A stretch of 64,000 nucleotides of DNA. It comes from Larkinella terrae. GTDB taxonomy: Bacteria; Bacteroidota; Bacteroidia; Cytophagales; Spirosomataceae. The stretch is from the NCBI RefSeq assembly GCF_009668025.1, contig NZ_WJXZ01000015.1, positions 186,001 to 250,000 on the forward strand, given 5' to 3'. The notes under the pieces were generated by a model that ran no database searches, was not told the DNA's origin, and saw only the letters and a program-made list of their open reading frames with translations. Positions 15,359-31,751 of this stretch are shown here, one piece after another (the stretch's first letter is position 1; each line of letters opens with the position of its first letter). The position numbers and the translations under genes are program-made.

Positions 15359-16456
15359 ATGAAAATCAGCCACATCGACGTTTTCAAGTTCAATATCCCG
15401 CTCAAGGCGCCGATTTCCATATCGCTGGGAACCATTGAAAGTGCGCGAAATCTGCTGGTCCGGATTCACGCCGACGGCTTGATCGGCTGGGGCGAAGGGT
15501 CGCCGTTCTGGATGATTGTGGGCGAAACTCAGGAAACCGGGTATGCCGCTGCGCGGGATTTTGCCAAACTGCTGATCGGCCAGAATGCGCTGGATATTGA
15601 AGGAAATCTGAACCGGCTGGACGCTTACCTTCCGAATAATCCGACCACTAAAAGCGCCTTCGACATGGCGCTGTACGACCTGGCGGCCCAGGCCGCCGGA
15701 ATGCCGCTCTACGCTTTTCTGGGCGGTTCCAAACGGACGCTGGTAACCGACGAAACGATTTACCTCAATTCGCCGGAGCGCATGGCCGACGATGCGGTTC
15801 GAATTAAGGAAAAAGGTGGCGTGGCCATCAAAGTCAAGCTCGGCACCAACCAGCGCGACGACATCCGGCGCGTGGAAGTGATTCGGGAAACCGTCGGCGA
15901 CGGGATTCCGATCCGGACGGACGCCAATCAGGGCTGGGATTACGTGACGGCGTTGAATGTGCTGACAACCATTCAGAACTGGAATATTGAGTACTGCGAG
16001 CAACCGGTCAAGGCCTGGAACATCGCCGATCTGAAGCGGCTACGCCGGAACACTTCCGTGCCCATCATGGCCGACGAATCGCTTTTTAACCACCGCGATG
16101 CGCTGCGTCTGATCCAGGAGGATGCCGTCGATTATTTCAACATCAAACTGTCGAAAAGCGGAGGAATTTTCAACGCCCAGAAAATCAATGCCCTTGCCGA
16201 AGCCGCCGGTATTCCGTGTATGATCGGCTGCATGTCCGAATCCCGGCTGGCAATCACAGCCAAGGCCCATTTTGCTTCTTCCCGCCGGAATGTTACGTTT
16301 TTTGACCTGGATGCACCTTTCGAACACGCCGAAGATCCGGTGGCTGGCGGTGCGGTTTATGAAGGGTACGTCGTTGAGTTATCGGACAATCCGGGTATCG
16401 GAGCCAAAATCGATCCCCAATTCCTGGAATCATTGGAAAATTACACGGTTCGGTAG
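15359..16456 (+). CDS. Enolase-superfamily epimerase, probably dipeptide (muconate-cycloisomerase-like)
   Basis: 365 residues of the mandelate racemase/muconate lactonising group. The capping domain includes GWGEGSPFW; the barrel has the KxK acid/base pair in VAIKVKLG, the metal ligands D in IRTDANQGW, E in IEYCEQPV and D in PIMADESLF, and the opposite lysine in YFNIKLSKSGG. This is the arrangement of L-Ala-D/L-Glu and related dipeptide epimerases. No signal peptide, so cytosolic. It ends 87 nt before the NRPS-PKS gene; it might recycle cell-wall dipeptides, or epimerise a residue related to the cluster product. The second idea is inference from position only. Confidence 0.88.
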   Translation: MKISHIDVFKFNIPLKAPISISLGTIESARNLLVRIHADGLIGWGEGSPFWMIVGETQETGYAAARDFAKLLIGQNALDIEGNLNRLDAYLPNNPTTKSAFDMALYDLAAQAAGMPLYAFLGGSKRTLVTDETIYLNSPERMADDAVRIKEKGGVAIKVKLGTNQRDDIRRVEVIRETVGDGIPIRTDANQGWDYVTALNVLTTIQNWNIEYCEQPVKAWNIADLKRLRRNTSVPIMADESLFNHRDALRLIQEDAVDYFNIKLSKSGGIFNAQKINALAEAAGIPCMIGCMSESRLAITAKAHFASSRRNVTFFDLDAPFEHAEDPVAGGAVYEGYVVELSDNPGIGAKIDPQFLESLENYTVR

Positions 16457-16543: not shown

Positions 16544-19500
16544 ATGCACTCAACGGATGATTTCGAAGCTCTTCAGGAAAAAAACGCGGCTTTGTTACTT
16601 CATCAGTTGGTTGCGCAACAGGCTACAAAAACACCGGAAGCCATTGCGGTTCTGGACGCTACCCAGGCGGTTTCGTTTGCCGAATTAAATCGCCGATCTT
16701 CCCAATTAGCCCAGTTTCTTCTGATAAAAGGCGTAGAAAAAGAACAATTCATCGGTGTTTGCCTGGACCGTTCCGTTGAGATGGTTATGGCGGTTCTGGC
16801 TGTTTTAAAAGCGGGCTGTGCGTTCGTTCCAATTGATCCTAATTATCCCGCCGAACGACTTAATTATATCGTCACCGATACGGCAATGCCACTGATTTTA
16901 TGTAGCCGGAAAACCCGTTCAAAATTAGCCAATTCGCTATTGAGTAACTCCACTACGGAGCTTCAGGAAATTGATTATTCGAACGATACTTGTTATATAA
17001 ATTCTGGTAATACCACCCCGGTTCTAGTATCGCCCTCGGATTTAGCCTACGTCATTTATACATCGGGTTCGACCGGTAAACCCAAGGGGGTTTTGATCGA
17101 GCATCGGTCTTTATCCAATTACATTCAAAGCAGTATTCAGCATTATTCGGCCACGAATAGCCAACATTCCGGCAGTTATTTTCACCTTCCGCTGACGTTC
17201 GACGCTTCACTAACGGCGCTGTTCGTCCCTTTGTTAACGGGGAAAACCATCGTCATCAGTCCGGCGGCACCACTGGACGTTTTCAATGACAGTTTATTCA
17301 TTCAGCAGGCTCCGTTTGATTTCCTGAAATTAACACCGGCCCAGTTTCTTTTGCTGGAAAGTTCAATAAACGATCAGGCCAAATGGAGCACCAGAACCTA
17401 CGTGGTTGGCGGTGAAGCCTTACACCAGCGCCATTTCCAGTTCCTGATCGATCACCGCGTCGACGCCGAAATCATCAACGAATATGGCCCAACGGAAGCC
17501 ACAGTGGGCTGTATTTCGTACCGGTTTCATGTGCAGGACCCGGTTCCGGTTTTTCAGAATGGGCTGCTGATCGGCAAGCCGATGCCGAACGTGTCCATTT
17601 ATTTGCTGAACGAATCGCTTCAACCCGTTCCGGTTGGTTCGGAAGGTGAAATTTACATCGGCGGTGTGCAGGTGGCCCGCGGTTATCTGAACAATGAACC
17701 GTTGACCAACCAGAAGTTTCTGGCGGACCCGTTCGCCAATGAACCCGGTGCGCGGATGTACAAATCGGGAGATTTAGGACGCTGGCATCCGGATGGAAAT
17801 ATCGAATACCTGGGCCGAATTGACGAACAGGTTAAAATTCAGGGATTTCGAATCGAACTCGGTGAAATTGAAAATGCATTGATTCAATACCCCGGAATTA
17901 TTCAGTGTGTCGCGCACGCTGTTGAAGGCAGTTTCTCCGAAAAAAGGTTGGTTGTTTATTACCTTAGCGACGATGATACGCTCGATAAAAATGCGGTTTT
18001 TGCCTTTTTAAAAAACCGCCTACCGGACTTTATGATCCCATCTTTATTGGTAAAAATCGACACGATACCGCTTTCAGCCAATGGCAAAGTTGATCGGAAA
18101 TTATTACCAAAACCTGAGACAAAACGCTCCGAATTAAACGATTTATATATCGCACCCATTACGCCAACTGAAAAGAAAATTGCCTTGCTTTGGGCCTCAC
18201 TTCTTCAGTTGGATAAAGTAGGACTGGAAGACAATTTCTTTGAGCTGGGGGGAACTTCGATCCTGAGTATTAAATGCATTAGCCTTCTAAAACAGCAATT
18301 CCAGCGTGATATATCGGTTACCAAAATTTACCAACACCCAACGGTAAAGACTTTTAGCCTTTTTATCGATGACGGGCTATCGAATGGGCCTAAAACGATA
18401 AATTCAAGGGTTGTTACCAGACAGCATTCCGAAGATGTTGCCGTAATTGGCATGGCGGGCCGTTTTCCGGGAGCCAATACCATTCCGGAACTTTGGGAAC
18501 TGCTGAAACAAGGCAGAGAAACCACCCGGTTTTTCACCGAAGCCGAGTTGGATGCCTCCATTCCGGACGCCATCAAAAACGCCCCCAACTACGTCAAAGC
18601 CCGGGGAGTCCTCTCGGATGCCGATCAATTTGATGCTGCTTTTTTTGGATTGAGCCCCCGACTGGCCGAAGTGATGGACCCGCAGCAGCGCATTTTCCTG
18701 GAAATTGCCTGGGAAGTTCTCGAACAAACCGGCTATCTCCTCCCCACGTTTGCGGATTCAATTGGCGTTTTTGCCGGTTGCGGCAACAATACCTATTACC
18801 TGAACAATGTGCACGGCAACCAGCAGGTGATGAGCCAAATTGGTGGTTTTCAGGCCATGACGGTCAATGAAAAGGATTACATCGCTTCCCGAACGGCCTA
18901 CCAGCTCAATCTGAAAGGGCCCGCCGTCAGTGTGTATTCGGCCTGTTCCACCTCTCTGTTGGCCATTACGCTGGCTGTGGAAAGCATCCGAAACGGTCAA
19001 TGCGAACTGGCGCTGGCCGGAGGTTCCAGTATTACCGCCCCGATCAACAGCGGTCATTTATACGAAGAGGGGACGATGCTGAGTAGGGACGGCCACTGCC
19101 GGTCGTTCGATGCCGACGCGAGTGGCACGGTTTTCAGCGATGGCGCGGGCGTTGTTCTCCTCAAAAATCTGGAAGCTGCCCGGCAGGATGGCGATATGAT
19201 TTACGCCGTTATCAAAGGGGTGGGCGTCAACAACGACGGGGCCGGAAAGGGAAGTTTTACCGCCCCCAATACCGAAGGACAGGCCGGTGCCATTGCTGCG
19301 GCCATTGCCGATGCCCGCATCGATCCGGCAACGATTCAGTACGTCGAAGCCCACGGAACCGCTACGCCACTTGGTGATCCGATTGAAATTGAGGGCCTTA
19401 AAATGGCATTCGGGCCGTCGGTTCCTCACCAGTACTGCGCCATTGGATCTATCAAAAGCAACATGGGGCACTTGACGGCGGCCGCCGGAGTAGCCGGTTT

Positions 19501-22500
19501 TATCAAAACCGCCCTTGCGCTCCATCATCGCCTGATCCCGCCATCCCTCGGTTTTTCGAAGCCGAATCCGCACATTGATTTTGCCACGAGCCCGTTTTAC
19601 GTCAACACGGCACTTACCGAATGGAAGTCTGATCAACCGCGTCGGGCGGGCGTCAGTTCGTTTGGCGTCGGTGGCACCAATGTGCACGTTGTACTGGAAG
19701 AATCTGATTATGAATCACCTACATCGTCACCGGGCCGTGATTTTCAATTACTAACCTGGTCGGCAAAAACCGCAGCGAGTCGCGAAGCCTACGCGTTTCG
19801 GCTAGCTAATTACCTTAAGAAAAACCGCGATACCCAGCTGGTCGATCTGGCTTTTACCCTGCAAACGACCCGCCCCGATTTCAACCACCGGCGGTTTCTG
19901 GTTTTGCCGAAAGACACTGCCATTGCCGAAAACCGGTTGTTGACCGACCCGGATTCGTCGCAGCAAAAAACCGTGACGGAAAAACCGGGGGAAGTAGTTT
20001 TCCTATTTCCGGGGCAGGGCGCGCAGTACCTCAACATGGGTCGTCAGTTGTACGAAACCGAAGCCGTATTTCGGCAAGCCGTCGATGCCTGCGCAAATCT
20101 GCTGGAACCATACCTGCCCATCGACATTCGCGACATTATTTACGCCCAAACTACTGATTCCGAAGCCGATGAGCAGTTACGAAACACCCGCTTTACCCAG
20201 CCTGCGCTTTTTGTTACCGAATACGCACTCGCTCAATTGTGGATAAGTTGGGGAATTGAACCCGGGATTTTCTGTGGCCACAGCATCGGCGAATTTGTGG
20301 GTGCTCACTTGGCCGGTATTTTTTCGCTGGCCGACGCCCTGAAACTCATCGCCATTCGCGGACAGCTCGTGAGCGAATTGCCAACCGGCGACATGCTTTC
20401 CGTCCGACTCGAAGCCGAAACATTGCAGAAAATCTTACCGGAAACGCTATCCATTGCCGCCATCAATAGCCCGAAGCTTTGCGTCGTAGCGGGTCCGCCA
20501 ACGGCAATCGCCAGCTTTTCAGAGCTGTTGAACCAGAAAGAAATCCCAAACCGGCTGCTGTTGACGAGTCACGCGTTTCACTCCGCCATGATGGACCCGA
20601 TCGTCGAGACGTTCCGGGAAGTGGTGGCTTCGGTTCCGCACAATCGCCCCCGAAAACCGATCATTTCGACCGTGAGCGGCACCTGGTTAACCGATGCCCA
20701 GGGCACCGATCCGACCTATTGGGCCAATCATTTGAGGCAAACTGTCCGCTTCGCCGATGCCATGCAGGTGGTTTCGGAACTGGACAATCCGCTTTGTCTG
20801 GAAGTAGGACCGGGCAATGTTACCTCAACGCTGGCGCGGCAACATCCGGTGGTCGGCAAACATCCGGTAGTGGCAAGTCTGGGAAACAGCAAAGGGGTAG
20901 AAACCGAAGTCCAAGCCATCCTTCATTCATTGGGGCAACTCTGGATCAGCGGTTTACAACCGGACTGGAACGCCTTTTATGCCCGGCAAAACCGGGTCAG
21001 ACTGAGTTTGCCGACCTACGCTTTCGACCGAAAACGCTGCTGGCTTGATCCGCCCAAACCGGCAACGGCAACTTTACCAAGTCCGAATCCGACGGAATCC
21101 GTCACCGATTTATCAGTTCCCCCCGTACAAAATTCTGGAATGAGAAAGACAATTTTGGTTGAAAAGGTAAAAGAACTGCTGGAAGAAGCGTCCGGAATCG
21201 AAATGGAGGGCGCAGCAATTGACCGGAGTTTTCTGGAAATGGGCCTCGATTCCCTCCTGCTGACGCAGGTTGCGATCATCCTAAAAAAAGAATTCGGGCT
21301 GCCCATCACGTTCCGGCAACTGAACGATGAATTTACGACGCTCGACCAGTTGGCGACGTATCTGGATCAGCAATTGCCCGCCAGCGCGTACCAGCCAGCG
21401 CCGGTTACAGCAACGCCCGCATCGACACCGTCCGTTCATTCTCTTCCGAACACGCCTACTCCGAACGGACCTTCTGCGGTTTCGGCCGGAAACGATTCGG
21501 CCATTGGTCTGATTGCCCAGCAGTTACAAATCCTGGCGAAACAGGTTGCGTTGCTTGAAGGTGGAAACCATTCGCCCCTGCAGACGCTCCCGCCCGCGCC
21601 CCCGGTTCAGGTTTCTTCCAACGGAAAACATACTCCCCCCAAACTGGCCGACCTCACGCCCGAAGAAGCGATCGAGATCAAAAAACCGTTCGGTGCGACG
21701 GCCCGCATCGACCGTCAGGTGACCGAACTGACTCCGCGCCAACAGCGGTTTTTACAGGATTTGACGGCGCGTTACAACCTGAAAACCGGTGGCAGCAAGG
21801 CCTATTCGCAGAAACACCGGGCCGCCATGGCTGACCCTCGGGTGGTTTCGGGATTTAAGCCACTGACCAAAGAAATCGTTTATCCGCTGGTGGTCAACAA
21901 GTCGAAAGGCAGTCGGTTATGGGACATCGACGGCAACGAATACATCGATGCGCTGAACGGTTTTGGTTCCAATCTCTTTGGTTATCAACCCAATGCAATC
22001 AAAGAAACGCTCCACGAACAGATTGAACTCGGCTTCGAAATCGGCCCGCAACACGAACTGGCCGGTGAGGTCTGCGATCTGATCTGTGAGTTTACGGGTA
22101 TGGATCGGTCCGCCCTGTGCAGCACCGGTTCCGAAGCGGTTTTGGGAACGATGCGCATTGCCCGAACGGTAACGGGCCGCTCACTGATCGTGGCCTTTAC
22201 GGGTTCCTACCACGGCATTGTGGACGAAGTGATCGTGCGCGGAACGCGAAAACTGAAGTCGTTTCCGGCGGCTTCGGGAATCATGCCGGAAGCGGTACAG
22301 AACATGCTGATTCTGGATTACGGCACGGAGGAATCCCTGCAAATCATTCGGGAACGCGCGCACGAACTGGCGGCCGTGCTGGTCGAGCCGGTGCAAAGCC
22401 GTCGGCCTGAATTTCAGCCGGTTGCGTTTCTAAAAGAAGTGCGAGCCATCACGGCTGCGTCGGGAACGGCGCTGATTTTTGACGAAGTGATCAGCGGTTT

Positions 22501-23236
22501 TCGGATGCATCCGGGTGGTGCGCAGGCTCTGTTTGGCATCAAAGCCGACCTGGCTTCCTACGGAAAAGTGGTGGGCGGTGGACTGCCCATCGGGGTGATT
22601 GCCGGAAAAAAAGAGTTTATGGACGCGCTTGACGGCGGTTTCTGGCAGTACGGCGACGCGTCGTTCCCGGAAATTGGTGTTACCTATTTTGCAGGGACGT
22701 TCGTCCGGCACCCGCTGGCGCTGGCGGCCGCCAAAGCGTCGCTCAATCGCATGAAAGAATTGGGGCCGGAGTTGCAAAAAGGGCTGACCCGCAAAGCCGT
22801 GCGGATTGCCGAAACGCTGAATGCCGAATTCCGGCGGCAGCAACTGCCTTTTTTCGTGGCGCAATTTGGCTCACTCTGGAAGCTGAAATTCAACGAGGAA
22901 ATCCCGTACAGTGAGCTGCTCTTTACGCTGATGCGCGAAAAAGGCATTCATATCTGGGACGGTTTTCCGTGTTTCATAACCGCGGCACATTCTGATAAAG
23001 AAATCGATCAGATTATCGTTGCTTGCCTCGAAAGCGTCAACGAATTGACTGAAGCCGGTTTTTTCGTAAAAAAATCGTCAACAATTGAAGCCAGCGAGGA
23101 TATTCCCGCTTACTTTGCGTCTGATATTTCTCCGGTTCCGGGTGCAAAATTAGGAAGAGATCGGAATGGCAATCCCGGCTGGTTTATCGAAAATCCTGAC
23201 CAACCAGGTAAATACATGAGCGTTGAGTTAAAATGA
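16544..23236 (+). CDS. Hybrid NRPS-PKS: A-PCP-KS-AT-ACP-aminotransferase
   Basis: 2230 residues. It begins directly with an adenylation domain (about 10-540; A3 core YTSGSTGKPKG near 172, A10 NGKVDRK) and has no N-terminal condensation domain, so it starts the chain. The PCP has LGGTS with S572. The ketosynthase (about 630-1060) has C801, H937 and H976; the acyltransferase has GHSIGEF (S1247) and HAFHS near 1345, the malonyl-type signature. Directly after comes an ACP (GLDS, S1570), then an alanine/proline-rich linker and a class-III PLP aminotransferase (about 1725-2200) with DEVISGF and K2008. No ketoreductase, dehydratase or methyltransferase is present. Pocket residues of the A domain read as DATKVGEVGK, nearest to the Asn code. 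Predicted output: a beta-amino (beta,gamma-diamino) acyl chain for the next protein. Confidence 0.95.
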   Translation: MHSTDDFEALQEKNAALLLHQLVAQQATKTPEAIAVLDATQAVSFAELNRRSSQLAQFLLIKGVEKEQFIGVCLDRSVEMVMAVLAVLKAGCAFVPIDPNYPAERLNYIVTDTAMPLILCSRKTRSKLANSLLSNSTTELQEIDYSNDTCYINSGNTTPVLVSPSDLAYVIYTSGSTGKPKGVLIEHRSLSNYIQSSIQHYSATNSQHSGSYFHLPLTFDASLTALFVPLLTGKTIVISPAAPLDVFNDSLFIQQAPFDFLKLTPAQFLLLESSINDQAKWSTRTYVVGGEALHQRHFQFLIDHRVDAEIINEYGPTEATVGCISYRFHVQDPVPVFQNGLLIGKPMPNVSIYLLNESLQPVPVGSEGEIYIGGVQVARGYLNNEPLTNQKFLADPFANEPGARMYKSGDLGRWHPDGNIEYLGRIDEQVKIQGFRIELGEIENALIQYPGIIQCVAHAVEGSFSEKRLVVYYLSDDDTLDKNAVFAFLKNRLPDFMIPSLLVKIDTIPLSANGKVDRKLLPKPETKRSELNDLYIAPITPTEKKIALLWASLLQLDKVGLEDNFFELGGTSILSIKCISLLKQQFQRDISVTKIYQHPTVKTFSLFIDDGLSNGPKTINSRVVTRQHSEDVAVIGMAGRFPGANTIPELWELLKQGRETTRFFTEAELDASIPDAIKNAPNYVKARGVLSDADQFDAAFFGLSPRLAEVMDPQQRIFLEIAWEVLEQTGYLLPTFADSIGVFAGCGNNTYYLNNVHGNQQVMSQIGGFQAMTVNEKDYIASRTAYQLNLKGPAVSVYSACSTSLLAITLAVESIRNGQCELALAGGSSITAPINSGHLYEEGTMLSRDGHCRSFDADASGTVFSDGAGVVLLKNLEAARQDGDMIYAVIKGVGVNNDGAGKGSFTAPNTEGQAGAIAAAIADARIDPATIQYVEAHGTATPLGDPIEIEGLKMAFGPSVPHQYCAIGSIKSNMGHLTAAAGVAGFIKTALALHHRLIPPSLGFSKPNPHIDFATSPFYVNTALTEWKSDQPRRAGVSSFGVGGTNVHVVLEESDYESPTSSPGRDFQLLTWSAKTAASREAYAFRLANYLKKNRDTQLVDLAFTLQTTRPDFNHRRFLVLPKDTAIAENRLLTDPDSSQQKTVTEKPGEVVFLFPGQGAQYLNMGRQLYETEAVFRQAVDACANLLEPYLPIDIRDIIYAQTTDSEADEQLRNTRFTQPALFVTEYALAQLWISWGIEPGIFCGHSIGEFVGAHLAGIFSLADALKLIAIRGQLVSELPTGDMLSVRLEAETLQKILPETLSIAAINSPKLCVVAGPPTAIASFSELLNQKEIPNRLLLTSHAFHSAMMDPIVETFREVVASVPHNRPRKPIISTVSGTWLTDAQGTDPTYWANHLRQTVRFADAMQVVSELDNPLCLEVGPGNVTSTLARQHPVVGKHPVVASLGNSKGVETEVQAILHSLGQLWISGLQPDWNAFYARQNRVRLSLPTYAFDRKRCWLDPPKPATATLPSPNPTESVTDLSVPPVQNSGMRKTILVEKVKELLEEASGIEMEGAAIDRSFLEMGLDSLLLTQVAIILKKEFGLPITFRQLNDEFTTLDQLATYLDQQLPASAYQPAPVTATPASTPSVHSLPNTPTPNGPSAVSAGNDSAIGLIAQQLQILAKQVALLEGGNHSPLQTLPPAPPVQVSSNGKHTPPKLADLTPEEAIEIKKPFGATARIDRQVTELTPRQQRFLQDLTARYNLKTGGSKAYSQKHRAAMADPRVVSGFKPLTKEIVYPLVVNKSKGSRLWDIDGNEYIDALNGFGSNLFGYQPNAIKETLHEQIELGFEIGPQHELAGEVCDLICEFTGMDRSALCSTGSEAVLGTMRIARTVTGRSLIVAFTGSYHGIVDEVIVRGTRKLKSFPAASGIMPEAVQNMLILDYGTEESLQIIRERAHELAAVLVEPVQSRRPEFQPVAFLKEVRAITAASGTALIFDEVISGFRMHPGGAQALFGIKADLASYGKVVGGGLPIGVIAGKKEFMDALDGGFWQYGDASFPEIGVTYFAGTFVRHPLALAAAKASLNRMKELGPELQKGLTRKAVRIAETLNAEFRRQQLPFFVAQFGSLWKLKFNEEIPYSELLFTLMREKGIHIWDGFPCFITAAHSDKEIDQIIVACLESVNELTEAGFFVKKSSTIEASEDIPAYFASDISPVPGAKLGRDRNGNPGWFIENPDQPGKYMSVELK

Positions 23237-23242
23237 TTTTGC

Positions 23243-26200
23243 ATGGTTGATCACGCTGTTTCTCCACACCTCGTTCCCGTTGATTTTGATCCATTTGCGG
23301 GGCCGGAGCTCATTCGCCTGGCTCCTGCCACCGAACCACAGGTGGAAATCTGGTCGGCCTGTCTGCTCGGTGGTGACGATGCAAATCGGGCCTACAACGA
23401 ATCGAGCTCGCTGCGGTTTCAGGGTCGTCTCGACCGAAATGCGTTGGAGGAAGCCTTGCGGACATTAATCCGGCGACACGAAGCGCTGCGGCTGGTATTC
23501 AGTGCCGACGGGCGCCAGATTCTGGTTTTCCGGGATTTTCCGATTGATCTTTTCTACGAAGATCTTTCGGCAAAACCGGCTTCAGCGCGGGAGCAGTGGA
23601 TTGGCCATTACCTGAAACAGGAAGTTTTCTATTCGTTCGATCTGCTGCGCGGCCCGCTTCTGAGGGCTAGCCTGATCAAATTAGCAGACAATGAACACCA
23701 CTTCGTTTTAACGGCTCACCACATTATCTGCGACGGCTGGTCAACCGGTACCATGCTACAGGATTTAGGTAAAATCTATTCCGCCTACGTACTGAACAGC
23801 CAGCCTGAGCTTCCCCAATCACCGGCGTTCAGCCAGTACGCTCATGAGCAGTTTGCGTTCGCTAAAAGCCCAGAATACCGTCAGATTGAGAATTTCTGGA
23901 TCGATCAATATAGAGAGAGTGTTCCGGTATTGAATTTACCGACGGATTTTCCCCGGCCCGTTACACGCTCGTTCAAAAGCAATCGGCAGGATTATACCCT
24001 CGATCCCAACCTCGTGGCGGACCTGAAAAAGCTGGGATTACAGGCAGGTTGTAGTTTTGTAACCACTTTGATGGCCACGTTTGAGGTTTTCCTGAGCCGA
24101 ATTACCGGACAGGAAGACATTGCACTGGGACTGCCCGCAGCCGGGCAAACGCTCCTGGATTATAACCGGTTGATGGGTCATTGCGTCAACCTGCTGCCGC
24201 TGCGAAGTGCTCCCAAAGGCGAACTGCAGTTTCTGGAATTCTTAAAACAGCGCCGAAAAGCCGTTCTGGATGCGTTTGATCATCAACAACTGACGTTCGG
24301 CAGCTTGTTGAAAAAGCTGAAAATCCCCCGCGATTCGTCCAGGATTCCGATTGTACCGGTGGTGTTCAACATCGACATGGGAATGACGGAAGGTGTGCAT
24401 TTTCATGATCTTACGTATCAGTTGTTTAATAACCCACGGGCGTTTGAAAGCTTTGAGATTTTTCTGAATGTCAGCGACTCCAACAAAATTCTGACGCTGG
24501 AATGGTCGTACAACACGCAGTTGTTCAGAGCCGACACGATCGACCGGATGATGGCTGAATTGGAGTCGTTGATCCGGGCCGTGGTGGCCGATCCTCAGAT
24601 TCAGCTGGATGCTATCCGGTTTTCAAATCCTTCCCGTTTACTCGAACAACTCAGTCATTGGAATGCTACTCAGGTCGACTACCCGCGCAACACGCCCCTT
24701 CATCAACTGATTGCTGGGGCCGCTGCTCAGTTTGCCAGCAAAACCGCCCTGACGTTTGGTCACCAAATGCTAACGTACCAGGCTTTGAATGCCGCCGTAA
24801 ACCGCCTGGCGCATTACCTCATCGGGCAGGGCATTCGGGTTGGCGATATCATCGGTGTTGCCGTCGACCGGTCGCCGGAAATGCTTATAACTTTGCTGGC
24901 GGTTATGAAAGCGGGGGCGGTTTATGTTCCGACCGACCCGGATTATCCGGCCGAGCGGGTCGCTTTTATGCTGGAGGATTCGGCGGCCAAAATGCTCATC
25001 GTTTCCAGCAAATACCGAGGCCGGTTTTCCACCACAGCCACCGAACTTTCCATTGAACAGGCGCTGGCCAAATCGGTCACGCTTTCGACGGCGGAGCCGG
25101 AGGTGACGGTTTTGGCAACCGATCTGGTTTACATTTTATATACCTCCGGTTCGACCGGCAAGCCCAAGGGTGTCCAGATTACCCACCGCAATCTGGTCAA
25201 TTTTCTGCTCAGCATGCAAACCGCCCCCGGAATCCAAAGCGGTGACAAATTGCTGGGTGTAACGACGATTTCGTTCGATATCTCGGGCCTGGAATTGTAT
25301 CTGCCCCTGATCAGCGGGGCCGAACTGGTTCTGACGGATGCCGATTCGAGCAAAGACGGCCGGGTTTTGCTGGACCTCATCCGCTCGGAACGGATTACGA
25401 TCATGCAGGCCACGCCCTCGACCTGGCGCATGATGCTGTCGGTGGGCTGGAACGATGTGCCACCGTTGAAAATCCTCTGCGGTGGTGAAGCGCTGCCAAA
25501 AGATCTGGCGGACCAATTGACCGCAGCCGGAAACGAACTGTGGAATATGTACGGGCCAACCGAAACCACCATCTGGTCGACGCTGAAAAAAATCCGCAAC
25601 GAAACCGATGAGCAGATATCTATCGGGCGACCGATTGCCAATACGGTGGTCTATATTCTGGATGAAAAACGGAATCTGCTACCGGCGGGCCTTCCGGGCG
25701 AAATTTACATCGGTGGCGATGGCGTGGCGCTCGGTTACCTGAACCGCCCCGAACTAACCAAAGAAAAATTCATTAAAAGCCCCTTTGATACCGATCCGGA
25801 AGCGGTTTTATACCGGACGGGTGATCTTGGTCTGTTTACTCCCAATGGCGAAATCGTTTGCCTGGGGCGCATCGACCAGCAGGTGAAAATAAGGGGCCAC
25901 CGTATCGAACTGGGCGAAATCGAACACGCACTTACCCAACTCAACAATGTTCGGGAAGCCGTTGTGGTTGCCCGCGAAGACCGCCCCGGTGACCAGCGTC
26001 TGGTCGCTTACGTGGTTCCGGAGCAGGAAAAAATCCGGAGCCGGGGCCCCGACTGGAAGGAAAAATGGAAGGTCATTTACGATCAGGGCGTTCATTATGA
26101 AAGCGATATCCATCTCTCGGAGCAAAATCTCGACGTCGCCATCGTTGAATTGATCAGTTCCCGCAAAAATATCCGACCGGAAGTTGCCGAGTGGCTGCAG

Positions 26201-28507
26201 CAATCCATTCAGCGGATTAAGGAGCTGAAACCGCAGCGTGTACTGGAAATTGGCTGCGGAGCGGGTCAACTGGTTTTCAGAATTGCCCCTGATACGCAAT
26301 CCTATATCGCAACAGATTACGCCGAAACCGCCCTGAATAAATTAAAACAGAAGCTGGCTCTTCATCCGGAAAAATGGCAACACGTTTCGGTCAGAAATGC
26401 CCTGGCCGACGATTTTTCGATGGTTGAAGCGTCGTCGCTCGATCTGGTTTTAATCCACAGCGTTACTCAATATTTACCGGACACTAATTACCTGATCAAC
26501 GTGCTCCGGGAGGCCGCGAATGCCGTACAGTCCGGCGGTTGCATTTTTATTGGTGATGTCCACGGCAAGGAAACCCTGCGAATGCACCACGCGTACGACC
26601 ATTTTCTGCGCTCTACGCACGAAACGACCGTCGCTCAATTCTCGGAAATCGTGGATCGCCGGGTGAAACTGGAAGATAATTTTACGGCCGATCCGGCTTT
26701 TTTCTACCTGCTCCCCTCGGTTATTCCCGGTATTTCTGCGGTCGACATTCAACTCCGGCGGGGTAGTTACCTGAACGAAGCCACGAAGTATCACTACGAT
26801 GTCTGGCTGTACGTCGGCACCCCTCCCCAACAGGTTGCTGCCACTAAAAAGATTCAGTGGACGGCGAATTATACGGCGGAACAGTTGGAAAAAGATTTGC
26901 TGACCAATCCGCATAAAGTCGTTCAGTTGAGTCAGATCTTCAATAATCGCATCGCCAGGGATTATGCTTTTCTGGCGTCCCTGACCAATTCAGCACCGCT
27001 TACCCCACTAAAAGAGCTAAAACCGAAAATTGATGCAGCTCCGTTCGGGGCGGACCCTGAGCTTTTTTTTGAATTAGCCCCCAGATTGGGTTTTCAACCG
27101 CACGTCCGCTGGACGAATAACGGATCCTCCGGAACGTTTGAGGTTGTTTTCATTCCCAATTCGATCAAAAACGCCATTCCTGAAAAACCGGACCAGATTC
27201 GACTCGACGACCTGGTTATTGAGGCATTTGCCAGCCACGCCTATACGCCCGCGCCGACGGTTACCGCCGAGCAGATTCAGCAATGGAAAAAATCCCTGAC
27301 GGTGGCCTTACCGCAGTATATGGTACCTGCGGAGTTTGTCATTTTACCGGCCCTCCCCCTCACCCCAAACGGAAAAATTGACCGAAAAGCCTTACCCAAG
27401 TCACTGATTACAACCAGCCAGAAACCGGAAAAACCGGAATCGTTATCCGCTGAAGAAGAGCTGATTCTGAACATTTGGCAAAGCCTGCTGGGCATTGAAA
27501 ACATCAGCGTCACCGACGATTTTTTTGCGCTGGGCGGCCATTCGCTGATTGCCATTCAGGTCATGACGCAGCTCGAAAAAGAAACCGGTAAGCGTCTGCC
27601 CCTGGCCACCCTGTTTGAATACCCGACCATTCAGAAACTGGCGGTTTTGCTGCAGAAATCACGAAAAGCAACGATCTGGAAATCCTTGATACCGATTAAG
27701 CCAACCGGTAATAAAATGCCGCTTTACGTCATCCACGGTTATGATCTGAACCTGCTTTATTTCAAAAATCTGGTCGTTCATATGGATGAAGAGCAGCCCA
27801 TTTACGGACTTCAGGCTCTGGGAGTCGACGGGAATGCGCAACCGATGGAAACGCTGGAAGATACCGCGGCTTTCTATATCAGTGAGATTCTGGAACAAAA
27901 TCCGGCTGGTCCTTACGCCATTGCCGGTTATTCATCCGGTGGTTACATCGCCGTTGAAATGGCCCGGCAGCTCCAGGTAATGGGAAAAGAAGTAAAATTG
28001 GTGGGCGTTTTCGATACCAATGCCGACGAATACTCCGCGCACCAGGTAATGGCGGAAAAATCGAATTTCTACAAATTCGGGAAGAAAATTCTTCGGCAGG
28101 GCCCCAAGCTGGTCTGGTTTACCAAATCACTTTTCCAAAAACCGGGAGCTACCCTGAACTACCAGAAAGGCTACGTAAAACGTCAGTTAACCAGCCTGTT
28201 CGTCGCGCTGGGATTGGCGAAACGACCCAAACCGGAAGGAATTTCGGACGCCATGATGGCGATTATCGATAAGAATGAGGAGGTCTTTCAAAAATACGTT
28301 ATGGAACCGTACGACGGCGTTATCCATCTCTTCCGGGCGATGGAACGGCCTTACTACATCGACGATTTTAAATTTCTGGGCTGGAGCCGCTTCGCGATGA
28401 AGGGCGTTCGGGTGCATGACGTACAGGGAGATCACAAGATGATGCTCTATCCGCCATTTAACGAAGGATTTGCCCGCGTTTTGCAAAATGCGCTGGACAA
28501 TAGTTAA
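23243..28507 (+). CDS. NRPS: C-A-(N-methyltransferase)-PCP-TE
   Basis: 1754 residues starting 6 nt after the previous stop. The condensation domain (about 25-450) has intact HHIICDG (159-165). The adenylation domain follows (about 460-930 plus a C-terminal subdomain at about 1320-1390), with YTSGSTGKPKG near 630 and NGKIDRK. Between them a methyltransferase is inserted (about 940-1310; SAM loop VLEIGCGAGQ from V1000), the usual place of N-methylating domains. PCP LGGHS carries S1434; the thioesterase (about 1490-1754) has GYSSGG (S1564) and the distal H1731 in GDHKMML. Pocket residues read DILQLGMIWK, nearest to the Gly code, suggesting sarcosine. TE release makes this the terminal module. 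Confidence 0.95.
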   Translation: MVDHAVSPHLVPVDFDPFAGPELIRLAPATEPQVEIWSACLLGGDDANRAYNESSSLRFQGRLDRNALEEALRTLIRRHEALRLVFSADGRQILVFRDFPIDLFYEDLSAKPASAREQWIGHYLKQEVFYSFDLLRGPLLRASLIKLADNEHHFVLTAHHIICDGWSTGTMLQDLGKIYSAYVLNSQPELPQSPAFSQYAHEQFAFAKSPEYRQIENFWIDQYRESVPVLNLPTDFPRPVTRSFKSNRQDYTLDPNLVADLKKLGLQAGCSFVTTLMATFEVFLSRITGQEDIALGLPAAGQTLLDYNRLMGHCVNLLPLRSAPKGELQFLEFLKQRRKAVLDAFDHQQLTFGSLLKKLKIPRDSSRIPIVPVVFNIDMGMTEGVHFHDLTYQLFNNPRAFESFEIFLNVSDSNKILTLEWSYNTQLFRADTIDRMMAELESLIRAVVADPQIQLDAIRFSNPSRLLEQLSHWNATQVDYPRNTPLHQLIAGAAAQFASKTALTFGHQMLTYQALNAAVNRLAHYLIGQGIRVGDIIGVAVDRSPEMLITLLAVMKAGAVYVPTDPDYPAERVAFMLEDSAAKMLIVSSKYRGRFSTTATELSIEQALAKSVTLSTAEPEVTVLATDLVYILYTSGSTGKPKGVQITHRNLVNFLLSMQTAPGIQSGDKLLGVTTISFDISGLELYLPLISGAELVLTDADSSKDGRVLLDLIRSERITIMQATPSTWRMMLSVGWNDVPPLKILCGGEALPKDLADQLTAAGNELWNMYGPTETTIWSTLKKIRNETDEQISIGRPIANTVVYILDEKRNLLPAGLPGEIYIGGDGVALGYLNRPELTKEKFIKSPFDTDPEAVLYRTGDLGLFTPNGEIVCLGRIDQQVKIRGHRIELGEIEHALTQLNNVREAVVVAREDRPGDQRLVAYVVPEQEKIRSRGPDWKEKWKVIYDQGVHYESDIHLSEQNLDVAIVELISSRKNIRPEVAEWLQQSIQRIKELKPQRVLEIGCGAGQLVFRIAPDTQSYIATDYAETALNKLKQKLALHPEKWQHVSVRNALADDFSMVEASSLDLVLIHSVTQYLPDTNYLINVLREAANAVQSGGCIFIGDVHGKETLRMHHAYDHFLRSTHETTVAQFSEIVDRRVKLEDNFTADPAFFYLLPSVIPGISAVDIQLRRGSYLNEATKYHYDVWLYVGTPPQQVAATKKIQWTANYTAEQLEKDLLTNPHKVVQLSQIFNNRIARDYAFLASLTNSAPLTPLKELKPKIDAAPFGADPELFFELAPRLGFQPHVRWTNNGSSGTFEVVFIPNSIKNAIPEKPDQIRLDDLVIEAFASHAYTPAPTVTAEQIQQWKKSLTVALPQYMVPAEFVILPALPLTPNGKIDRKALPKSLITTSQKPEKPESLSAEEELILNIWQSLLGIENISVTDDFFALGGHSLIAIQVMTQLEKETGKRLPLATLFEYPTIQKLAVLLQKSRKATIWKSLIPIKPTGNKMPLYVIHGYDLNLLYFKNLVVHMDEEQPIYGLQALGVDGNAQPMETLEDTAAFYISEILEQNPAGPYAIAGYSSGGYIAVEMARQLQVMGKEVKLVGVFDTNADEYSAHQVMAEKSNFYKFGKKILRQGPKLVWFTKSLFQKPGATLNYQKGYVKRQLTSLFVALGLAKRPKPEGISDAMMAIIDKNEEVFQKYVMEPYDGVIHLFRAMERPYYIDDFKFLGWSRFAMKGVRVHDVQGDHKMMLYPPFNEGFARVLQNALDNS

Positions 28508-28526
28508 GCCATCCAAACCGGACTGT

Positions 28527-28534
28527 TATCTTTG
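28527..28534 (+). promoter_or_regulatory. Possible -7 box immediately before the PPTase
   Basis: TATCTTTG matches TAnnTTTG and ends 5 nt before the ATG at 28540. If used, the transcript would begin at or next to the start codon (leaderless). No -33 TTG at the expected distance, and the box lies in the 32-nt gap after the NRPS gene, so chance is possible. Confidence 0.25.
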
Positions 28535-28539
28535 GCCGT

Positions 28540-29289
28540 ATGGGCTCAGCTTTCCTCGTTTACAATACCCTTCCGGCAGTAAAATGGTCTGACGTGCCGG
28601 AGTCGTTACCGGTTTCCGATCTGGCCATTTTTCGAATCGAGCTGATCCGGTTTTCTGGTTTTATCAACCCTTTATCTGCGTTATTGATGCCCGACGAGCA
28701 AATCCGCGCTCAGCGGTATTTCCACGAAAAAGACCGGCACCGGTTTATTATCACGCGGGGATTGCTGCGCATTCTTTTGGGTAACTACACCGGTCGAAAA
28801 CCGGCCGACATTCGGTTTGTCCAAAGTGTTCACAAAAAACCGTCGGTTCTGGGAAGCGACTGGCACTATAACGTGTCGCATTCCGGCGGCTGGGCGCTGA
28901 TCGCCCTGAGCAAAACCGCCGTTGGCATCGATATTGAGAAAATAGACCGTGATTTTCAGTTTCGGGACATTCTCTCCGAAAGTTTTACCCCGCAGGAACG
29001 GGTTTTCATCGAACAAAGCCCCGATCCACGCGCCCGGTTTTACCAGCTTTGGACCCGGAAAGAAGCCCTTGTGAAAGCAACCGGTCGGGGCATCGACGAG
29101 CACTTTAAACAGATTCCGTCGCAGGAAGGCACTCACACTGTTGATAATCAACAGATTGGAAGTTCAGATCGCTGGATCATCAGTAGTTTTGACGTAACGG
29201 AAGAATACGCGGCTGCCGTCGCGTATGAATCACCGGAGAGGGTAGCTGATTTTTATGAACTTCGGTATATGCTCAATGCAGAACCCTGA
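28540..29289 (+). CDS. Sfp-type 4'-phosphopantetheinyl transferase
   Basis: 249 residues. Core motifs: WHYNVSHSGGWALIAL, the Mg-binding VGIDIEKIDR, and LWTRKEALVKATGRG. FHEKDRHRFIITRGLLR is the usual N-terminal substrate-binding helix. The enzyme transfers the phosphopantetheine arm from CoA to serine of carrier domains; here the clear clients are S572, S1570 (first synthetase) and S1434 (second synthetase). It lies 32 nt after the synthetase gene on the same strand, so it completes the cluster. The length matches the Sfp/Gsp group, not the shorter AcpS group. Confidence 0.94.
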   Translation: MGSAFLVYNTLPAVKWSDVPESLPVSDLAIFRIELIRFSGFINPLSALLMPDEQIRAQRYFHEKDRHRFIITRGLLRILLGNYTGRKPADIRFVQSVHKKPSVLGSDWHYNVSHSGGWALIALSKTAVGIDIEKIDRDFQFRDILSESFTPQERVFIEQSPDPRARFYQLWTRKEALVKATGRGIDEHFKQIPSQEGTHTVDNQQIGSSDRWIISSFDVTEEYAAAVAYESPERVADFYELRYMLNAEP

Positions 29290-29300
29290 CCACTTTGCAG

Positions 29301-29750
29301 TTACGATTTTATAGTGGAAAGCAGTAGAAGGAATTGGCCCATCGACAGGATTTTAGTTTTTTGATATTCCTCTAAAACTAATAAATCATTGTCACCTGTA
29401 ATTAGAAAATCCGCCTGGCAACCTGCGCAAATTCCGAGCAGATAATTGTCGTTCTTGTCTCGAACTAAATCAGGTAAAGTGCCTAAAGTTGTTCTATTTA
29501 AAAATTTCAGAATAATGCTTTTAAACCGACTTACCTGTTTGGCAGTAACAATTTTAGCGAATTTGGGTCGGTTTATTACATCATCAAATTCGGCTACCAG
29601 TTCCTGCGAATAAAATAGCTGTAAGTCAGTATTTTTCAAGATTTGATAGTAAACCGTTCTGCGCGACTTTCGGCTAATACAGGCTGAAATATACCAGTTT
29701 GCGTCAAGAATGACTTTGAGCCTTTTGTTTTTTTTCACTCCGATAAGCAT
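29301..29750 (-). CDS. PIN-domain toxin of a toxin-antitoxin pair
   Basis: 149 residues from the ATG at 29750; a longer frame to 29828 lies mostly over the antitoxin gene. PIN acidic residues are visible: the first aspartate in VILDANWYISA, the glutamate in ELVAEFDDVI, and the aspartates in RDKNDNYLLG and ITGDNDLLVL. This is the COG1569-like PIN family of presumed RNases. The start overlaps the 3' end of the antitoxin gene by 47 nt in another frame, typical of coupled translation. It converges with the PPTase gene, 11 nt apart, so the pair marks the end of the biosynthetic cluster. Confidence 0.82.
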   Translation of the reverse strand: MLIGVKKNKRLKVILDANWYISACISRKSRRTVYYQILKNTDLQLFYSQELVAEFDDVINRPKFAKIVTAKQVSRFKSIILKFLNRTTLGTLPDLVRDKNDNYLLGICAGCQADFLITGDNDLLVLEEYQKTKILSMGQFLLLLSTIKS

Positions 29751-29943
29751 TAATTTCCGCTTGAATTTCTTCCGTTGAGATCTCAACATCAGGCATTTCA
29801 GCATCAAGCTCTTCGAAGAGGTCATCAAGTAGCCGGACTTGCAATTTTCTGGCTATTTCGCGTCGATCTTTCGCCGAAAACGTCTCAAACGTCTTAATAA
29901 ACTCGGTCTGTGTCATGACTTTTGCTTGGTTTTCACCTAACAT
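29704..29943 (-). CDS. Antitoxin partner of the PIN toxin
   Basis: 79 residues from the ATG at 29943 (alternatives: GTG at 29973, overlapping the ABC gene stop, or ATG at 29916). The sequence is short and charged, with a helical LRR-free segment FSAKDRREIARKLQVRLLDDL followed by an acidic stretch (EELDAEMPDVEISTEE) and a lysine/glutamine-rich tail, a layout common in antitoxins that wrap a PIN toxin. Upstream of and overlapping the toxin, as expected. No DNA-binding fold is obvious. The call rests mainly on context. Confidence 0.68.
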   Translation of the reverse strand: MLGENQAKVMTQTEFIKTFETFSAKDRREIARKLQVRLLDDLFEELDAEMPDVEISTEEIQAEINAYRSEKKQKAQSHS

Positions 29944-29969: not shown

Positions 29970-31751
29970 TCACGCTTCCTCGGTTTGCAACTGTTTCTCA
30001 TAGAGTTCGCGGTAGACGCCGTTGGCCGCCAGCAGTTCCTCGTGCGAGCCGTGTTCAACCACCTCGCCCTCGTCGAGAACGATGATCTGGTCGGCCAGCT
30101 TGGCCGACGAAACCCGATGGGAAATCACCACGGAGGTGCGGTTTTCCATAATCCGGTGGAGGTTATTCAGAATGATGTTTTCCGTGTTGGTATCGACCGC
30201 CGACAGGCAATCGTCCAGAATCAGGATTTTGGGATCGCGGGCAATGGCGCGGGCAATGGAAAGCCGCTGCTTCTGACCACCCGATAAGGTAACGCCCCGC
30301 TCCCCGATCCGGGTCTCGAACTTCTCCGGAAATTCAATGATATTCTGGTATAAATCAGCGTCTTTAATGGCCTGTTCCGCCTTTTCCTGCGGCATATCCG
30401 GCATCCCGAATTTGACGTTGTTACTGATCGTTTCGGAAAACAGAAACACTTCCTGCGGCACGTACCCCATTTGCCGGCGAATGCTCATTAGGCTGTAATC
30501 CTTCAGCGGAATGCCATCGATCAGAATCTGACCTTCGGTTGGGTCGTACATGCGCGTGAGCAGGTTCGCCAGCGTACTTTTTCCCGAGCCCGTTGTGCCC
30601 AGAATGGCCACGGTTTCACCGGCTTTGACGTTCAGATTAAAGTTCTTGATGGCGACAATGCCCGAATCCGGGTACACAAACCGGACATTCCGGAATTCAA
30701 CTTCACCAACAACCTCGCGTTCCAGCGATTTTTCCGAAACAAGATCGGTTTTGACGGCCAGAAACTCGTTAATCCGCTGTTGGGAAGCCGCAGCCCGCTG
30801 GGTTTGGCTGGTCGTCCAGCCGAGGGCCATCACCGGCCACGTCAGCATATTGACGTACAAAATAAATTCCATGATGTTCCCCGGCGTCAGCCGCCCGGTC
30901 AAAATTTCCTGCCCGCCAACGTAAACAACAAGTACGTTACTAAAACCGACCAGTAACATAATCAGCGGAAAAAACAGCGAATCGACGCGCGTCAGTTGCA
31001 GTGATTTTTGCTTGTACGTATCGCTTTCAGCCGTAAAATTGGCCGCCGAATTGTCTTCGCGCACAAAGGCTTTCAGTACCCGAATCCCCGAAAATGCTTC
31101 CTGAACAAAGGTAGATAGCCGCGAAAGACTCCGTTGAATTTCTTCTGAACGTTTAATAATAATGGTGTTGACCACGTAAATCGCGACCGAAAGCACTGGT
31201 AAAGGCAGGAGAACGTATAGGCTCAGCCGGACGTTGATCGAAACCATGTAGCTGATTACCAGCACAAAGAGCGTAATGAGGTTCAAACCGTACATGATCG
31301 ACGGACCGATGTACATCCGCACTTTGCTGACGTCCTCCGAAATCCGGGCCATCAGGTCACCGGTGTTGTGCTGGCGGAAAAAACTCAGCGGGAGCGTCTG
31401 GTAGTGAACGTAAATTTCGTTTTTCAGGTCGTATTCGATGTGCCGCGACATTACAATCAGCGTTTGCCGGACCAGAAAAAGAAAGAAGCCTTTCAGCAGG
31501 GCCATCGCCAGAATCAGCAGACCGTAAAACAGAATACTGAAGGCAAAGACATCGTATAAGTTACTTTGGAGTCGGCTGCCGTTGTAGAGAAAATAAATGT
31601 CGAGGGTTTCCTTCACCAGATCGAGCGAATACCGCACCAATTGGGCCGGAATAATCCCGAACAGGTTGGAAATAACGGTAAAAGCGGTTCCCCAGATCAG
31701 GTACCATTTGTATTTCAGTAAGTATTTGTTGAGGTGGGAAAGTGCTTTCAC
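29970..31751 (-). CDS. ABC exporter, fused membrane and ATPase domains
   Basis: 593 residues. Six-helix exporter domain (about 15-320; contains the conserved NTGDLMARISEDVSKVR coupling region) followed by an ATPase domain (about 345-590) with Walker A LGTTGSGKST, Q-loop YVPQEVFLFS, signature LSGGQKQRLSIARA, Walker B ILILDDCLSAVD and the switch histidine in VISHRVSS. The aspartate replaces the usual catalytic glutamate after Walker B (LDDCLSA), so this half may be poorly active and the protein could work as a heterodimer or with altered cycle. Half-transporter of the MsbA/LmrA type. Convergent with the NRPS cluster and separated by the toxin pair, so a role in product export is possible but unsupported. 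Confidence 0.92.
   Translation of the reverse strand: MKALSHLNKYLLKYKWYLIWGTAFTVISNLFGIIPAQLVRYSLDLVKETLDIYFLYNGSRLQSNLYDVFAFSILFYGLLILAMALLKGFFLFLVRQTLIVMSRHIEYDLKNEIYVHYQTLPLSFFRQHNTGDLMARISEDVSKVRMYIGPSIMYGLNLITLFVLVISYMVSINVRLSLYVLLPLPVLSVAIYVVNTIIIKRSEEIQRSLSRLSTFVQEAFSGIRVLKAFVREDNSAANFTAESDTYKQKSLQLTRVDSLFFPLIMLLVGFSNVLVVYVGGQEILTGRLTPGNIMEFILYVNMLTWPVMALGWTTSQTQRAAASQQRINEFLAVKTDLVSEKSLEREVVGEVEFRNVRFVYPDSGIVAIKNFNLNVKAGETVAILGTTGSGKSTLANLLTRMYDPTEGQILIDGIPLKDYSLMSIRRQMGYVPQEVFLFSETISNNVKFGMPDMPQEKAEQAIKDADLYQNIIEFPEKFETRIGERGVTLSGGQKQRLSIARAIARDPKILILDDCLSAVDTNTENIILNNLHRIMENRTSVVISHRVSSAKLADQIIVLDEGEVVEHGSHEELLAANGVYRELYEKQLQTEEA

Follow-up and report, generated by a model that had tools for sequence, protein, structure and literature searches.

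We describe a biosynthetic assembly line in Larkinella terrae (Bacteroidota), encoded within a 64,000-nucleotide stretch of its genome (contig NZ_WJXZ01000015.1, positions 186,001 to 250,000; hereafter the window). The window encodes a real and intact line of two proteins that combine nonribosomal peptide synthetase (NRPS) and polyketide synthase (PKS) modules, together with a 4'-phosphopantetheinyl transferase (PPTase). The best explanation, to which we assign a probability of roughly 70%, is that this is an intact accessory line making a 3,4-diamino-acyl-sarcosine. It is a member of a large, widespread family whose layout is already catalogued, and it is an orphan so far as we have searched. 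What is surprising is the exchange of starters among relatives and their repeated place beside polysaccharide genes, although the latter is not shared by the window copy. Its product may be a free small molecule; polysaccharide-linked use, possible in many relatives, is another reading.

A complete two-protein line

The line consists of adenylation (A), carrier (PCP, ACP or T), ketosynthase (KS), acyltransferase (AT), aminotransferase (AMT), condensation (C), N-methyltransferase (NMT) and thioesterase (TE) domains, distributed as follows:

16544..23236, + strand: P1, A-PCP-KS-AT-ACP-AMT, 2230 aa (open reading frame, Pfam and motifs)
23243..28507, + strand: P2, C-A-NMT-PCP-TE, 1754 aa (open reading frame, Pfam and motifs)
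28540..29289, + strand: P3, PPTase, 249 aa (Pfam ACPS)

The three open reading frames are co-directional, with gaps of 6 bp between P1 and P2 and 32 bp between P2 and P3. Pfam detects an A domain, two carrier domains, KS, AT and a class-III aminotransferase in P1, and C, A, methyltransferase, carrier and thioesterase domains in P2. A preliminary description of this DNA had proposed a complete line of two synthetases and a PPTase in this order; its coordinates are exact and the Pfam domains agree. The first domain of P1 is an A domain of the amino-acid type (TIGR01733, 422.4 bits; cut-off 317.4), and the PKS module of P1 has an AT domain, with no ketoreductase (KR) among the Pfam hits. Identities among the listed full-length matches range from 52 to 85%, so the architecture is not a product of chance.

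The catalytic residues had also been described as intact, and every motif that we checked is present. In P1 these are YTSGSTG (residue 172) and LGGTSI (568) in A-PCP; ACSTS (800), EAHGT (935) and NMGH (973) in KS; GHSIGE (1245) and HAFH (1343) in AT; GLDSL (1567) in ACP; and YGKV (2006) in AMT. In P2 they are HHIICDG (159), YTSGSTG (633), EIGCGAG (1002), LGGHSL (1430), GYSSGG (1562) and GDH (1729). Motif integrity holds for the window proteins only, since the patterns are too strict for many relatives. The aminotransferase lysine is unchanged across all 18 aligned sequences.

The methyltransferase of P2 sits inside its A domain: positions 1-38 of the 76 in AMP-binding_C are matched ahead of it (Pfam). 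The solved chain 5wmm, labelled only as an NRPS, aligns over P2 488-1386, across the methyltransferase; we take 5wmm to be an interrupted A-methyltransferase.

The AMT domain of P1 resembles that of MycA. Among solved structures the nearest is mycosubtilin synthase A (6kfm; E 3.4e-124), followed by glutamate-semialdehyde aminomutase (2e-49), which supports the kinship to MycA-type proteins proposed earlier. MycA and McyE have the order KS-AT-ACP-AMT, which P1 shares. Mycosubtilin- and microcystin-type AMT hybrids begin with a fatty-acyl ligase or a polyketide module, whereas P1 opens with an amino-acid A-PCP and not with the acyl-ligase of MycA. Furthermore, the predicted product here is a vicinal diamine with only one further residue, in contrast to a fatty beta-amino acid.

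Substrate codes and proposed product

The A-domain codes suggest an Asn-like starter, followed by a glycine that would be N-methylated to sarcosine. Nine specificity positions were read from alignment and the tenth (K) was assumed, giving DATKVGEVGK for the A domain of P1 (A1) and DILQLGMIWK for that of P2 (A2); a larger alignment has a gap at one A2 position. We take the A1 code to resemble that for Asn (DLTKLGEVGK, 8/10 positions), the A2 code to resemble that for Gly (DILQLGLIWK), and the AT motif HAFH to be of the malonyl type. Four code fragments were sought and not found in the accessible text of an A-domain review (PMC11253843), and the code meanings are presumptive.

In the proposed pathway, P3 would arm the carrier domains of P1 and P2. 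The A domain of P1 would load an Asn-like amino acid, and KS-AT would extend this starter by one malonyl unit to a 4-amino-3-oxo thioester. Amination of the ketone by the MycA-like AMT would then yield a 3,4-diamino acyl chain, whose two amino groups are neighbours. P2 would then join this chain to glycine, its methyltransferase would make the glycine sarcosine, and TE would free the pseudo-dipeptide, linear or cyclised. The substrates, the timing of N-methylation, the mode of release, the product and its function are predicted throughout. An amino-acid starter, one malonate unit, transamination and a final N-methylated residue had been put forward previously, and all four fit the domains by inference. 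The predicted linear acid is C9H18N4O4, with a computed [M+H]+ of 247.1401, or 229.1295 after water loss. A 3,4-diamino acyl glycine or sarcosine would represent an unusual class of small molecule.

The product could instead be a heterocycle, either a gamma-lactam formed via the 4-amine or a seven-membered diazepanedione formed via the 3-amine, on the line or after release. Ring closure follows from the expected chemistry of a 3,4-diamino thioester and might be carried out by TE, and on these chemical grounds we hold it as a tentative alternative.

Several points weigh against a diamino-acyl-sarcosine made by this line as it stands. The substrate codes are alignment reads with presumed meanings, and A1 agrees with the Asn code at no more than the 8 of 10 positions given above. 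P1 may serve other partners as well, since at 13 related loci a P1 code was read but the fetched stretch yielded none for P2 (8 are Thr-coded, 4 carry DAQFIGVVWK and 1 has a broken P2). Release need not occur by TE throughout the family, because the P2 proteins of two Variovorax plasmids (L195 and L201) have the order C-A-T-C-T, ending in a second C domain and carrier with no TE. Tailoring by unlinked genes is also possible.

Two known compounds were considered as products. TAN-1057, an antibiotic from Bacteroidota that contains a beta-amino acid and an N-methyl amide, was rejected because the codes read Asn-like and Gly instead of guanidinobutyrate and Dap. No gene cluster for TAN-1057 is named in the accessible portions of the open-access literature examined. 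Negamycin was also considered and dropped.

The line is an accessory cassette in Larkinella

The three-gene line is an accessory cassette between core genes. It is bordered on either side by a gene that lies outside the cluster:

15359..16456, + strand: left border, enolase-superfamily epimerase-like gene, with a match in 9/9 same-genus genomes
29970..31751, - strand: right border, MsbA-like ABC transporter, with a match in 9/9 same-genus genomes

The cluster lies between these genes in four of the nine genomes (the window, G071, G043 and G100). It is absent from the site in the other five, where the two genes are close together: four of these genomes have gaps of roughly 0.25 to 1.05 kb, and the fifth has other genes within a gap of roughly 3.7 kb. 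Both were rejected as cluster members because they are matched in all nine genomes and lie near each other at cluster-free sites; this check covered the epimerase and ABC transporter genes, and an amidohydrolase gene is found further upstream. The three syntenic P1 homologs are 85, 76 and 76% identical to P1, with open frames. One syntenic copy (L042) has a P2 without NMT, while the domain is kept in the window, L041 and L043. This points to a natural loss or gain of NMT at a single locus.

The patchy presence at this site could be read as a sign of a decaying or silent cluster. We consider this very improbable, given three frames open over 12.7 kb with intact motifs, and open frames in the syntenic P1 homologs.

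The product may be a free diffusible metabolite, such as an enzyme inhibitor, metal ligand or signal, with the proximity of relatives to glycan genes reflecting variable genome regions only. The window copy forms a stand-alone P1-P2-PPTase cassette with a TE, and detoxin/rimosamide-like lines give free products from PKS-extended proline, according to the accessible text of PMC12828459. As predicted here, those lines join an amino acid and one malonate in an NRPS-PKS hybrid, although with KR and trans-AT (PMC12828459) in place of the AMT and in-line AT of our line. However, the cassette holds no transporter, resistance or regulator gene, and same-strand runs with polysaccharide-export genes are found repeatedly, both in distinct lineages and on plasmids from two classes of proteobacteria. 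On balance, we regard a free metabolite as a serious possibility that falls somewhat short of an even chance.

The borders given in the preliminary description match the variable part of the site, except that they leave out a PIN-domain gene at the right-hand edge. This gene encodes a PIN_3-domain protein (29301-29828, - strand) and is perhaps part of a toxin-antitoxin pair. A segment of 184 bp (29733-29916), overlapping the upstream end of the PIN_3 gene, recurs at cluster-free sites in two same-genus genomes.

The line belongs to a widespread family

The same two-protein order recurs widely in Bacteroidota. P1 is matched with E of 1e-150 or lower in 56 of 200 genomes of the same bacterial family. 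A phylum-wide draw of 395 genomes contained 29 with matches at 1e-200; in 13 of these, including that of L. terrae itself, a single match covers at least 95% of P1. Scanning named genomes gave 569 confirmed stretches, of which the best 80, all Bacteroidota by title, are referred to as the named loci. These span, as we presume from genus names, the Cytophagales, Sphingobacteriales, Chitinophagales and Flavobacteriales. P1 is complete (A-T-KS-AT-T-AMT) in 76 of the 80 and incomplete in four. A C...TE protein stands next to P1 or one gene on in 65, and P1 and P2 are fused in three; this supports the order from P1 to P2. In eight further loci P1 is complete but no such P2 accompanies it. Some of the 65 split loci hold extra modules, and 12 have an NMT in P2. 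A PPTase of the P3 family is present in 47 of the 69 long named loci. The window copy shows all three features of the family: the P1 order, a C-A-T-TE P2 beside P1, and a PPTase nearby.

Thus, while the domain order, motifs, building-block types and MycA kinship of the preliminary description stand, its view that the module order is unfamiliar does not. The P1 layout has been on record since 2013, when Pedobacter heparinus C6XWU5 was tabulated as A-CP-KS-AT-CP-PLP1 with Aminotran_3, in an Nrps-t1pks cluster with the predicted product Nrp-Mal-Gly-Pk (PMC3870968). The accessible part of that source mentions no product or NMT for C6XWU5, and lists Thiorhodococcus drewsii with the same start. The likeness to C6XWU5 is one of tabulated layout only; our sequence comparison used other Pedobacter relatives. 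A survey of 600 Bacteroidetes genomes calls their hybrid clusters unique relative to other phyla, and its accessible text does not describe this line (PMC9248904). The line recurs over several Bacteroidota orders, yet we recognised no product for the two-protein architecture, and no link to polysaccharides, in the accessible open-access literature.

Relatives outside the phylum vary in how the line is divided and how it ends. In Variovorax paradoxus VAI-C, the protein that comes after the A-T-KS-AT-T-AMT domains reads C-A-T-C-T and lacks a TE, and Variovorax WDL1 is alike. Aliiroseovarius M344 has a fused line with TE, and in a Sinorhizobium relative the line is split differently.

Other variants were also observed. 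Two loci from same-genus genomes (L078 and L079) have a Gly-like starter code, a P2 without NMT, and a first protein of about 1825 aa whose match to P1 stops at the ACP region, so that it has no aminotransferase. Parapedobacter soli (L146) carries two complete P1 genes in tandem.

Starter codes and NMT are exchanged

The codes indicate that relatives exchange starters often. We built a FastTree tree of KS-AT-AMT with 106 rows, after dropping 5 duplicates from 111 P1 rows and excluding fused proteins and P1 sequences shorter than 1900 aa. The tree is unrooted, flank lengths are uneven and there was a warning on one long-branch pair; the counts of changes are minima. When every code string is counted, the tree implies a minimum of 45 starter-code changes, or 44 after removal of one row and correction of one code; merging codes that differ at no more than two positions leaves a minimum of 31. 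For NMT presence the minimum is 11.

The commonest P1 codes, duplicate loci included, are DVQFMAQVVK (32/118), DFWNIGMVHK (10) and DATKVGEVGK (8), the last being that of the window copy. We take DVQFMAQVVK to be Pro-like, and in this presumed preference many relatives resemble the detoxin/rimosamide-like lines. Second-protein A codes are of the DILQ.G.[IV]W kind in 59 of 110 cases, again including duplicate loci. Pairs with KS identity of at least 70% and different codes (925 pairs) have mean identities of 37% for the A core and 73% for KS, compared with 75% and 79% for same-code pairs (162 pairs); the lower A-core identity of the former is partly circular, because codes are read from the A core. 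Natural exchanges of starter and NMT reveal the parts of these lines that can be replaced.

The eight Thr-coded loci mentioned above (L063, L066, L069, L070, L074, L075, L080 and L144) have a GNAT acetyltransferase-family gene directly upstream and no adjacent P2 or TE. The same arrangement, P1 without adjacent P2 or TE and with a GNAT acetyltransferase-family gene directly upstream, was seen on a plasmid of Spirosoma linguale (L196).

Relatives repeatedly lie beside polysaccharide genes

We counted glycan genes in the 69 long named loci (11 of the 80, shorter than 19 kb, were excluded), using profiles that were seeded from genes of these same loci and mostly confirmed by Pfam. At least one glycan or exopolysaccharide gene occurs in 42 of the 69 and at least two in 37; the remaining 27 have none. 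Loci of the same bacterial family (n=40) include 22 with at least one and 20 with at least two. None of 20 control stretches, which were arbitrary places on contigs of same-family genomes and did not include other NRPS loci, holds a glycan gene. The Fisher p of 2.6e-07 for 42/69 versus 0/20 is overstated because the loci share ancestry. In the L. terrae genome, 48 GT2 glycosyltransferase matches mean that about 8% of 20-kb stretches hold a GT2 gene. On the 106-row tree, a minimum of 15 changes of glycan context is implied.

Several relatives stand in same-strand runs with export genes, separated by short gaps. In Maribacter (L126), P1 is followed by the PPTase, Wza-like and Wzc-like genes, a Wzy_C match below cut-off and a flippase, with a GT2 profile hit further on and a P2-like protein upstream of P1. 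In a Bacteroidetes metagenome-assembled genome (L096) the order is P1, P2, PPTase, a short unscanned gene, a sugar transferase, OEP and a Wzc-like gene; by gene families, this run is also found in three Mucilaginibacter loci (L099, L100 and L105). Spirosoma-group loci have OEP, Wzc-like, P1 and P2, often behind a glycosyltransferase (GT). The Wza/Wzc-like proteins of L126 and L096 fall below NCBIfam cut-offs, and the Wza-like family passes that of Pfam in L156.

The association extends beyond Bacteroidota. By annotation, a Variovorax paradoxus plasmid has P1, P2, PPTase, a hydrolase, a hypothetical protein, and genes for polysaccharide export, tyrosine autokinase and sugar transferase. The surroundings of plasmid relatives were examined for 8 of 28 records (L195-L197 and L199-L203). 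On an Aliiroseovarius plasmid, Wzc- and CpsD-type genes and GTs precede the fused line and PPTase. Two Rhizobium plasmids (L202 and L203) have a differently split AMT-bearing line near polysaccharide pyruvyl transferase, GH16 and PPTase genes; one also has SLBB and GT genes, and the other a flippase. No glycan gene lies within 12 kb of the line in Variovorax RA8, and none is annotated within 10 kb of the Spirosoma linguale plasmid copy. A further plasmid, from Planktothrix agardhii (L198), has annotated DISARM defence genes upstream of a KS-AT-T-AMT cluster that starts with a fatty acyl-AMP ligase.

These runs might indicate that the family makes polysaccharide substituents, with a diamino acyl-glycine unit attached to an exported glycan and the window copy acting on a glycan encoded elsewhere. 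The counts against controls, the runs in separate lineages and the repeated changes of context are consistent with this. The end C domain of P2 in L195 and L201 could, by its position, pass the chain to an outside amine. DltA and AlmE are not known to have KS, AT, AMT, C or TE domains, and for the line here no transfer enzyme was identified. Nevertheless, both offer a precedent, as a functional analogy only: their A domains activate amino acids for envelope polymers, according to the accessible text of PMC11253843. However, no glycan gene adjoins the window copy or its three syntenic relatives, the detector was seeded from the loci it was applied to, and several Wza/Wzc-like proteins are under cut-off. 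TE domains usually hydrolyse or cyclise, and the association may be passive because polysaccharide loci are variable regions. We consider a role of the family in polysaccharide substitution possible, though less likely than not.

More speculatively, lines across phyla may make exchangeable diamine-bearing peptide substituents for secreted polysaccharides. We hold this broader idea to be doubtful; if it were true, exchange of the starter A domain would vary surface chemistry between strains as O-antigen serotypes do. The recurrent same-strand placement with Wza/Wzc-like genes links assembly-line biosynthesis to polysaccharide chemistry in a way that can be tested.

Other synthetases of the L. 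terrae genome

The L. terrae genome has a second P1-P2 line on contig 12 (L009:8751 to L010:5698). Its P1 is 60% identical to that of the window, and its P2 also has a methyltransferase. The starter code is DPEHVAKISK and the second is Gly-like. Glycosyltransferase genes precede this line, and two Cupin_8 genes follow it.

A third synthetase, on contig 22 (L011:8672-14656), was rejected as a line of the same kind on the basis of its different architecture. Formyltransferase domains stand at its N terminus, and it also has A, C and TE domains and two carriers; its neighbours are a LytTR regulator and a histidine kinase.

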